Virus record (IMG/VR): IMGVR_UViG_3300025128_000261
Coordinates: 1-26,945 of that record
Direction: 5' to 3' (one strand)
From: a virus
Length of the DNA: 26,945 nucleotides
The notes under the pieces are model-generated. The model made no database searches, was not told where the DNA came from, and saw nothing but the letters and a program-made list of their open reading frames with translations. The translations under genes and the position numbers were made by a program. How positions within the stretch are numbered: position 1 is the stretch's first letter; every line of letters starts with the position of its first letter. Below are positions 24,021 to 26,945 of this stretch, piece by piece.

Positions 24021-24413
24021 ATGGAAGATATAACGCCAGATAAGCTAGCAAAAGCTTACATTAAAATAAGAGCAGAACGATCTGCGTTATCAGCGCAGTT
24101 TAAAGAAACAGACGGGGAGCTTTCAAGGAAGCTTGATCGTTTGAAACAGGCAATGCTTGAACATTGTGAAAGACACAAAGTTGAAAGCGTAAGAACTTCT
24201 GAGGGACTATTCTTTCGGTCTAAAAGAACAAAGTATTGGACAGGCGATTGGGATGCTATGCACAACTTTATTAAAGAGCATAACGTACCAGAGCTTCTTG
24301 ATAAACGTCTTAACCAAACCAACATAAGAGAGTTCCTAGAAGAAAACCCAACTTTAGTTCCTGATGCTTTGAATACTGAAACGGAACTAGTAATTTCTGT
24401 GAGGAAAAAATGA
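24021..24413 (+). CDS. Gp157-like phage protein (tentative)
   Basis: A 130-aa protein with an N-terminal charged coiled-coil helix (~7-50, DKLAKAYIKIRAERSALS) and a C-terminal alpha-beta part (SVRTSEGLFFRSKRTKYW, then IKEHNVPELLDKRLNQ and a final ELVISVRKK strand). That two-part layout resembles siphovirus Gp157 proteins, but I cannot confirm membership. It is coupled to the HTH gene (ATGA) and lies just upstream of ssb, where such proteins often occur. Confidence 0.55.
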   Translation: MEDITPDKLAKAYIKIRAERSALSAQFKETDGELSRKLDRLKQAMLEHCERHKVESVRTSEGLFFRSKRTKYWTGDWDAMHNFIKEHNVPELLDKRLNQTNIREFLEENPTLVPDALNTETELVISVRKK

Positions 24414-24655
24414 ACGAACCTTTTGTACCTATAGAAGATGTGGCTAAACACTTTAGTGTGTCCATATCAACTGTACGCGCTTGGGTGCGTCAAGAGCATA
24501 TTCCTAAAGATACCTACGTTAAAATAGGTAATACTTATAGGTTTCGTGTTGGAGATGTAGCCGACGCACTAACCACTGCCGAAAAAAATAATGGCAACAG
24601 TGGTGTAAAAACTAACGACGATCTAGACTTTGTTGATCTAGACGAAGATATATAA
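24410..24655 (+). CDS. Helix-turn-helix DNA-binding protein with acidic tail
   Basis: An 81-aa protein. Residues ~4-55 follow the MerR/excisionase-type HTH pattern: VPIEDVAKHFSVSISTVRAW, a short wing VKIGNTYRF, then VGDVADAL. The last ~14 residues are strongly acidic. It could be an excisionase-like architectural protein or a regulator. As the only clear short DNA-binding regulator here, it is one candidate for recognising the palindromic elements, which is pure speculation. Confidence 0.75.
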   Translation: MNEPFVPIEDVAKHFSVSISTVRAWVRQEHIPKDTYVKIGNTYRFRVGDVADALTTAEKNNGNSGVKTNDDLDFVDLDEDI

Positions 24656-24676: not shown

Positions 24677-25351
24677 ATGGAAACATATATAATAAAAAAT
24701 GTAGAGGCTCTTTGGCCTAAAATTAATACTACCTATCACTTTGATAGTAAGGCAAACAAGTCTATGCCCTGCGGTGCATTGGACGATGGTGCAGAATATT
24801 CTATACAATTTCGTATGGATGACGCTACTGCAAAGGCTTTATACATAGAAATGTCTAAGTCTTACCAAGCAAACAAAAAAGATAAGTGGGCAAACAAATT
24901 AGAGCGTCCATTTGTTAAAGACGACGAAGGTATGTTTACCCACAAGGCTAACTTGAAGGGTGCATATAGCAACAACAAAACAACCAAGCCTTTACAGGTT
25001 GATGCACAGGGTACGAAGTTACCAGATGACTTTTTACTTACGACAGGTAGTACTGTGAATGTTGCTGTTACATTTAATCCTTATGACTTTGGTGGTAAGC
25101 AGAACGTAAACTTACGTCTGAAAGCCGTGCAGGTTGTTAAGTACGTACCTATGGAAGACAGAAATCCTTTTGAGGTGGTTGATGGTTTTACCATAGAAGA
25201 TGACCCAAACCCTTTTAAACAAGAAGCAACTCCTGCTCCTGTAGAAGAGGAGGAAGTTGTCGAAGAACCTAAGAAAGTTGTTAAGAAGTCAGCCCCACCC
25301 GCTACTTCTAATGATGATGACTTGAGTGCAATAATTGATGATTGGGACTAA
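24677..25351 (+). CDS. ssb: Single-stranded DNA-binding protein (T7 gp2.5/Enc34-like)
   Basis: A 224-aa protein. Residues ~1-165 match the single OB-fold arrangement of phage single-strand binding proteins (VEALWPKINTTYHFDSK, later VNVAVTFNPYDFGGKQNVNL). A flexible Glu/Pro/Lys-rich linker follows to ~205, and the protein ends in an acidic DDDLSAIIDDWD tail, the usual docking site for polymerase and helicase. It coats unwound DNA at the fork. GGAG eight bases upstream supports ATG 24677. The stop lies in a short palindrome, CTAATCATTAG (25348-25358), immediately before the predicted RNA element. Confidence 0.85.
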   Translation: METYIIKNVEALWPKINTTYHFDSKANKSMPCGALDDGAEYSIQFRMDDATAKALYIEMSKSYQANKKDKWANKLERPFVKDDEGMFTHKANLKGAYSNNKTTKPLQVDAQGTKLPDDFLLTTGSTVNVAVTFNPYDFGGKQNVNLRLKAVQVVKYVPMEDRNPFEVVDGFTIEDDPNPFKQEATPAPVEEEEVVEEPKKVVKKSAPPATSNDDDLSAIIDDWD

Positions 25352-25358
25352 TCATTAG

Positions 25359-25444
25359 CACTCCGCCACGACTAGGTATTTACCGAAAGAATAATGTGTC
25401 GTATTCTGTCGTGGCGTCTTCGGCACTCATGATGGGTGGAGATT
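25359..25444 (+). ncRNA. Predicted cis-regulatory RNA (three-way junction) upstream of the primase gene
   Basis: In the 93-base gap a 9-bp perfect helix P1 (CGCCACGAC 25364-25372 with GTCGTGGCG 25408-25416) encloses two hairpins: GGTA/TACC (25375-25384) and AGAATA/TATTCT (25388-25393 with 25402-25407, 8-base loop), the second stacked directly on P1. CTCCGCC (25361-25367), which includes the start of P1, can instead pair over seven bases with GGTGGAG (25435-25441), the primase ribosome binding site. The two folds exclude each other, as in translation-controlling riboswitches. I do not recognise a known class; the folding is by eye. Confidence 0.5.
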
Positions 25445-26945
25445 ATGGAAACAAAAACATTTTTAGAAAATGTACTAGGGAGTGACGGATACTACAGCGT
25501 TCTAGCTTTTAATAATGAACGAAGAATACAAAAATTTTATGACTCTATTGATGCAGTTATACACGCCGCAAACAACCTAGATACACAAAAACTTAATACC
25601 TTTTACGGACTAGCCACGTTTAAAGATGGTAACAGTCGTAAAAGTGAAAACGTACAACATCTTAAGTCATTCTTTTTGGACTTAGATTGTGGAGAGGGCA
25701 AGGACTACCCAAACCAAACAGAAGCTATTAACGCTCTGCGCGGATTCGTTAAGACGTTATCCTTACCTAAACCTGTTATGGTGAGTTCTGGGTATGGGGT
25801 ACACGTCTATTGGATATTAGAGGATACCGTACATCCTGACGAGTGGACTCCTGTAGCACTGCAACTAAAGAAGATGTGTGTAGAACATGGGTTGAAGGCT
25901 GATCCTGCGGTTACGGCTGATACAGCTAGAGTATTACGTGTGCCAGGGACCCACAATCATAAGGGTGACACACCTAAACAAGTTAAGGTACTAGGCGTTG
26001 AAGAACCCAGGCTTGTAAACTTGGAAAGTTTTACAACGTTATTAGGTGGGGGTGTCATGCCTGTGCCTGTAAAGGTTGACTCTGCTGAGAGCGCATTGAG
26101 AGAAGCACTGAGAGAGAACTCGGACTTTTCATTTAAGAACATACTTAAGAAGTCTATCAAGGGTACAGGATGCGCTCAGATAAAAAACATGATACAGAAC
26201 AAAGAAAACATTAGCGAACCTCTATGGAGAGCAGGGCTATCTATAGCAAAATTTTGTTCAGACAAAGACAAAGCTGTGGACCTCATATCGGTAGGACATG
26301 AAGGATACAGTAAGGAGTTAACACAAGAGAAGGTAGACTTAATAAAAGGACCCTATCTTTGCTCTAGTTTTTATGAGCATAACCCCGATCTTTGCGCAGA
26401 CTGCCCTAACTTTGGTAACATAAAATCACCGATAACATTGGGCAGAGAAGTAAAGAAAGCTCCTACTGATCCAGAAAGACCACAGTACCCAGAACCATAT
26501 TTTAGAGGTGCAAACGGTGGGGTGTATGTAAGATTTACTAACGCAGATGGTGATCCAGAGGACAAACTTATATATCATAACGACTTATATGTTGTTAAAC
26601 GTATACATGATGTAGAACTTGGTGAAGCTATTGTGATGCGTTTGCACCTGCCAAAAGATGGGGTGAGAGAGTTTACAATACCGTTAACTTCTGTAACATC
26701 GAAAGAAGAATTAAGAAAACAACTATCTATGCAAGGTATAGCAGTAACAAGGATGGACGAGCTAATGCAATACACAACAACGTGGGTAAACCAACTACAA
26801 CTAACAGACAAAGCAGATGAAGCACGAAGGCAGTTTGGTTGGACAGATGATAACCTTGAAGGATTTATTCTTGGTAACGAAGAAATACGCAAAGATAGCA
26901 TAGAGTTTAACCCACCATCTACACCAACGGCAGGGTTGTTTCCCA
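25445..26945 (+). CDS. Archaeo-eukaryotic-type primase, probably primase-helicase (3' end beyond window)
   Basis: An open frame of 500 codons with no stop before the window end. The N-terminal domain has the prim-pol motifs: FFLDLD (Asp79, Asp81), SSGYGVHVYW (114-123, His120) and a third region with Asp159 and RVLRVPGTHNHKG (162-174), as in phage D5-like and RepB-type primases. Next comes a Cys-rich block (Cys243, Cys306, Cys317, Cys320 in CADCP) likely to bind zinc, then an uncharacterised domain. Such proteins usually continue into a helicase, here beyond the edge. It would prime synthesis for the PolA encoded upstream. GGTGGAG just before ATG 25445 is the ribosome binding site. Confidence 0.88.
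   Translation, partial: METKTFLENVLGSDGYYSVLAFNNERRIQKFYDSIDAVIHAANNLDTQKLNTFYGLATFKDGNSRKSENVQHLKSFFLDLDCGEGKDYPNQTEAINALRGFVKTLSLPKPVMVSSGYGVHVYWILEDTVHPDEWTPVALQLKKMCVEHGLKADPAVTADTARVLRVPGTHNHKGDTPKQVKVLGVEEPRLVNLESFTTLLGGGVMPVPVKVDSAESALREALRENSDFSFKNILKKSIKGTGCAQIKNMIQNKENISEPLWRAGLSIAKFCSDKDKAVDLISVGHEGYSKELTQEKVDLIKGPYLCSSFYEHNPDLCADCPNFGNIKSPITLGREVKKAPTDPERPQYPEPYFRGANGGVYVRFTNADGDPEDKLIYHNDLYVVKRIHDVELGEAIVMRLHLPKDGVREFTIPLTSVTSKEELRKQLSMQGIAVTRMDELMQYTTTWVNQLQLTDKADEARRQFGWTDDNLEGFILGNEEIRKDSIEFNPPSTPTAGLFP

Follow-up and report, generated by a model that had tools for sequence, protein, structure and literature searches.

What does a folded RNA do between the gene for a single-stranded DNA-binding protein and the primase gene of a marine phage? 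The question is raised by a viral DNA of 26,945 nucleotides (the window), which had no match among phage records. On its plus strand, the upstream ssb gene (24677..25351) encodes a T7 gp2.5-like single-stranded DNA-binding protein of 224 aa, which matched phrog_112 in PHROG (E 3.1e-18) and Enc34_ssDNA-bd and SBB_T7 in Pfam, each below cut-off. After a gap of 93 nt it is followed in the same sense orientation by the primase gene, which begins at ATG 25445, the point from which the relatives align, and is cut off by the window end at 26945; its product was matched to primase families of PHROG and, at a score below cut-off, to LigD_Prim-Pol. Judging from the sequence, the G-rich GGGTGGAG (25434..25441, +) is probably the primase ribosome-binding site, and a GGGTGG-like motif is found in most relatives, not all. 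Just 5' of ssb in the window lies a small HTH_17/MerR-like (AlpA/excisionase-like) gene (24410-24655).

The earlier note had placed a 9-bp helix P1 around two hairpins in this gap, giving a three-way junction, and its coordinates proved right. All elements lie on the plus strand. The P1 5' strand CGCCACGAC (25364..25372) forms 9 perfect pairs with the 3' strand GTCGTGGCG (25408..25416; also GUCGUGGCG). P1 encloses the P2 hairpin GGU-AUUU-ACC (25375..25384, with strands GGU 25375-25377 and ACC 25382-25384) and the P3 hairpin with an 8-nt loop (25389..25406, with strands GAAUA 25389-25393 and UAUUC 25402-25406). The helices are joined by J12, UA (25373..25374), J23, GAAA (25385..25388), and a single U, where many relatives have UA, GAAAA and CU. 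We additionally found a pseudoknot absent from the note, in which GUGUCG of the P3 loop (L3, 25396..25401) pairs with CGGCAC (25421..25426), immediately ahead of the ribosome-binding-site region. Folded alone, the window element gave an MFE of -27.9 with a z of -2.4, and 3/200 shuffles were equally good. Single-sequence folding is thus only moderately better than chance, and the analysis was therefore rested on relatives.

Relatives were collected in IMG/VR by searches with the SSB and the primase, with two divergent primases and with an RNA-only pattern. The protein searches yielded 111 distinct ssb-primase gaps, nearly all of which contain a strong helix. A model-guided alignment (A3) was made of 37 three-way-junction elements, 36 of them distinct, and was fitted to P1-P3 with the pseudoknot left out of the fitting. 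Among the 36 distinct relatives, P1 is paired in 324/324 cells, P2 in 100% and P3 in 89%. The earlier note had made its proposal hinge on compensatory changes among homologues, and these are abundant: two-sided changes occur at 6/9 pairs of P1, 2/3 of P2 and 5/5 of P3, and cells with such changes number 126 in this subset versus 41 in shuffles. The covariation score of the whole structure is 0.481, as against 0.242 when shuffled and 0.085-0.160 when slid. Independently of the alignment, the P1 strands of dissimilar relatives pair with their own partners at -16.4 kcal/mol and with permuted ones at -8.5 kcal/mol, and 0/2000 permutations were as good. The pseudoknot is paired in 90.7% of the A3 cells that hold letters, and in the same kind of alignment-independent comparison 38/5000 permutations matched its own strands. 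The helices vary; the junctions scarcely do, with UA identical in all 37 aligned relatives and GAAA(A) nearly so. The comparative evidence for a conserved folded RNA is decisive, which bears out the claim of a structured RNA conserved just before the primase ribosome-binding site.

P1 contains 17 G.U and 0 A.C among its 324 fixed cells. The tolerance of G.U together with the absence of A.C points to an RNA of the sense strand. A hairpin acting at the DNA level, as a replication origin or primase loading site, would suit the adjoining replication genes, but this asymmetry, the invariably sense orientation and the occurrence of a related fold beside integrase genes make its probability close to negligible; we rejected it on the G.U/A.C asymmetry. 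Three relatives (L019, L125 and L132) have the three-way junction without the 3' pseudoknot, which counts against our preferred reading; their P2 and P3 loops are complementary, and a kissing interaction between them is possible. As a separate observation, an additional outer helix, CACCAAAA/TTTTGGTG, surrounds the element in the gaps of L111 and L112 and extends into the ribosome-binding-site region.

A more specific proposal of the earlier note was that CTCCGCC (25361-25367), overlapping the P1 5' strand, alternatively pairs with GGTGGAG (25435-25441) and so switches primase translation. The complementarity is real, but the conserved switch is not supported, as the alternative pairing shows no covariation. 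In 38 diverse relatives, the P1 strand pairs with its own ribosome-binding site at -7.44 kcal/mol and with permuted ones at -7.55 kcal/mol, and 1303/2000 permutations were as good. Since pairing with the own site is no better than with others' across these 38 dissimilar gaps, the switch is not a conserved feature. Likewise, CACTC (25424-25428) and GGGTG (25434-25438), suggested as a second small hairpin reaching the site, are complementary, but this pairing, which competes with the pseudoknot, lacks conservation. In the window the P1 state is predicted to be favoured over the anti-RBS fold by about 2 kcal/mol, before any contribution of the pseudoknot. A near-twin of the window (L001:1478-1562) has U instead of C within P1 and G instead of A next to the ribosome-binding site, and for this reason its predicted MFE structure is the anti-RBS fold. 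By these folding models the window clade appears close to a two-state balance, and the switch may matter in this clade.

An improbable alternative is that the element senses a ligand, a protein or temperature as a riboswitch-like switch, possibly under autogenous control by SSB or primase. The conservation of junction nucleotides amid variable helices would suit such a sensor, as would the complementarity of the P1 5' strand to the ribosome-binding site in the window clade. A precedent exists in T4, where gp32 acts with a leader pseudoknot (PMC535899). Like our element, the T4 operator has a pseudoknot ahead of a ribosome-binding site within a replication operon of a phage, but it precedes the gene for the single-stranded DNA-binding protein itself and is bound by gp32 (PMC535899), whereas the window element is a three-way junction located 3' of ssb and 5' of primase, not in an ssb leader. 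Further points against sensing are that the putative expression platform, the alternative pairing, lacks covariation and that the putative aptamer core is missing again and again among orthologues. The analysis turned up no sign of a metabolite or temperature signal, and no Rfam riboswitch family matched the window.

The closest known RNA is int-alpA (Rfam RF02996, curated cut-off 35.8 bits). The int-alpA model scored orthologous elements in L125, L101 and L132 at 41.8, 39.6 and 36.2 bits, above the cut-off, and the L072 record at 31.3 bits, below it. The window itself gave no match to this model up to E 10, which counts against our preferred reading; its only matches in Rfam were sub-threshold (sR20, L2 leader, drum) and were taken as chance. 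Separately, L101:7032-7102 gave a suhB/mmgR-like match of 27.2 bits (cut-off 41), a hairpin with a U run that is probably a terminator. The reverse search was made with R2, a model built from phage elements only, against 41 bacterial int-alpA loci chosen by a pattern from the int-alpA consensus, independently of the phage model. R2 detected 21/41 of these loci at E < 0.01, the best at 1.8e-7. A pseudoknot at the same place covaries in the 41 bacterial loci (pairs CCUUCA/UGAAGG, CCCUG/CAGGG, CCCUA/UAGGG and UCCUGA/UCAGGG), and its own pairing was equalled in 0/1000 permutations.

On the strength of the ortholog matches in Rfam, the detection of bacterial loci by R2 and the common pseudoknot, we assign the window element to the int-alpA type, in all likelihood as a divergent variant rather than a scoring member. 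Both have the junction P1-UA-P2-GAAAA-P3-CU-P1' at a similar size, a pseudoknot from the P3 loop to the 3' tail, and an intercistronic position about 30 nt ahead of a start codon. The window element differs in its shorter P2, in the sequence of P3 and in its tail UCUUCGGCAC, which has no U-rich stretch, a feature that is not general in the bacterial loci either. Its neighbours are different too: ssb and primase, where int-alpA has an integrase and an adjacent gene. The bacterial loci lie just 3' of an ORF, which is a tyrosine integrase in many typed cases and in others, for example, an Ogr/Delta-like protein, and their setting of integrase and assorted ORFs stands against the ssb-primase gap found in all phage loci, where no integrase adjoins the element. 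A downstream ORF of at least 100 codons begins 15-45 nt past P1 in 33/40 bacterial loci (28% at random), mostly at 29-37 nt. The copy in E. coli has a tyrosine recombinase gene on one side and a DUF6387 gene on the other.

The earlier note had also suggested autogenous control by the upstream SSB. This is unlikely, as in the loci examined this RNA class also separates an integrase gene from unrelated genes, and no SSB gene adjoins it there; its presence beside unrelated genes argues against SSB or primase as a common ligand. The int-alpA class was already known, and no functional study of it was found in the literature searched. Nor did searches of that literature, to which the original int-alpA description did not belong, find the setting between ssb and primase, the covariation of the pseudoknot or the spacing rule.

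The RNA-only pattern fetched 71 new loci, every one of which comes straight after ssb; where the contig also holds a primase (68 loci), the element comes straight before that gene. Records of about 60 kb with a clear three-way-junction match have it in one place only, the ssb-primase gap. The end of P1 is 20-33 nt from the primase ATG in 40/41 three-way-junction sequences; over all parsed gaps the spacing to the primase start is 22.8 +/- 4.8, and the 5' side varies more. It is by comparison among these relatives that the fold, the pseudoknot, the sense-strand RNA nature, the single copy at the gap and the narrow primase spacing can be taken as established. Phage and bacterial settings are thus alike in having the fold about 20-37 nt ahead of the next start codon, with different flanking genes.

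These positions also bear on the idea that the helix is mRNA punctuation, that is, a processing or 3'-end protection signal (an RNase III/E site or an exonuclease barrier) that would divide the transcript into an ssb message that is stable and abundant and a primase message that is scarce, with the primase spacing a side effect. A stable helix after ssb in nearly all of the 111 distinct gaps, even in those lacking the three-way junction, is what this idea predicts, and hairpins also follow the pre-primase gene in Rhizobium phage RHph_TM27A, Pseudomonas phage Rollin and Roseobacter phages CRP-823/CRP-406. We nevertheless consider it possible but unlikely: the element keeps a more constant distance from the start codon that follows it than from the stop codon that precedes it, and conserved junction nucleotides and a pseudoknot exceed the needs of a plain barrier. 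An intrinsic terminator or attenuator after ssb is very unlikely. Its GC-rich helix is often followed by UCUU(U), and the Rfam int-alpA consensus ends U-rich, but in nearly all gaps the first 8 nt lack a U run and hold 2-5 T, the bacterial int-alpA loci have 0-6 T, and the spacer holds the pseudoknot strand instead. An intrinsic terminator was rejected for want of a U run directly after the GC-rich hairpin.

The core itself has been exchanged repeatedly. On the primase tree, junction and plain hairpin replaced each other about 9 times with the helix kept in the gap, and at least 6 of these exchanges rest on well-supported branches. Such exchanges count against our preferred reading; in evolution the junction core has proved dispensable. 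They also bear on the idea that the polycistronic phage RNA is cut by a self-cleaving ribozyme belonging to a class not described before, since plain-hairpin orthologues would be dead. Near-invariant junctions, the pseudoknot between the loop of the second hairpin and the 3' tail, and the phage/prophage and integrase context do recall type II hammerheads (PMC3088659), but known ribozyme families had no match in Rfam, and we give such a ribozyme very little credence. Kinship with the hammerhead was rejected, as the window element lacks the catalytic core CUGANGA and its J12 is UA only.

We consider it most likely that the element sets the expression of the next gene rather than senses a metabolite. 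At roughly 60%, we favour an RNA of the int-alpA type that acts in cis between the two genes and prepares the start region of the second, as a matter of translation or of an mRNA boundary. A cis structural role fits the constant downstream spacing, the differing flanking genes and the exchange of hairpins with the helix kept; a dedicated sensor of SSB, primase or a metabolite fits less well. The architecture P1 - UA - P2 - GAAA(A) - P3 - (C)U - P1', held in place by the pairing between the P3 loop and the strand immediately 3' of P1, would fold in the polycistronic phage mRNA at once behind ribosomes finishing ssb. Its 3' edge, about 20-33 nt ahead of the primase AUG, would form a stable boundary at the upstream edge of the 30S footprint. 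This boundary would fix the state of the downstream start region by keeping upstream sequence off the G-rich ribosome-binding site, or would be a nuclease-resistant edge of the primase message, or both, and primase expression would then differ from SSB expression. An effect on translation, stability or processing is suggested by position alone, and the step concerned might be 30S loading, coupling to ssb translation or a nuclease boundary.

A bolder view, which we hold only tentatively and think unlikely, is that int-alpA and the ssb-primase element are two branches of a widespread phage/prophage RNA device whose intrinsic activity decides expression about 30 nt downstream. That activity could be the sensing of a general host signal, self-cleavage or the stalling of host nucleases by the pseudoknotted three-way junction. 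Flaviviral xrRNA (Xrn1-resistant RNA) has a like topology, its three-way junction carrying a pseudoknot from L3 to a strand further downstream (PMC5760640); its junction nucleotides are different and there is no sequence kinship, so that the two are comparable by topology alone. Under the favoured reading of a cis-acting RNA at the start region, int-alpA, the conserved ssb-primase gap, the covarying pseudoknot and the common spacing in two unrelated gene settings come together as a testable expression element, for which the natural exchange of junction and plain hairpin provides ready-made controls.

The R2 model had no match in eight isolates (HTVC027P, HTVC023P, DSL-LC04, MinM2, CRP-823, CRP-406, Rollin and RHph_TM27A), and a cultured phage carrying the junction was therefore not found. 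Other arrangements of the gap were also seen. In L354 and L356 it spans about 230 nt and apparently holds a small helix-turn-helix ORF between the two genes. In the Roseobacter phages CRP-823 and CRP-406 (L358:3604-3645 and L359:3637-3675), a GC hairpin lies in the ssb-primase gap directly after ssb, with a run of about six A ahead of it that makes it terminator-like for the opposite strand.
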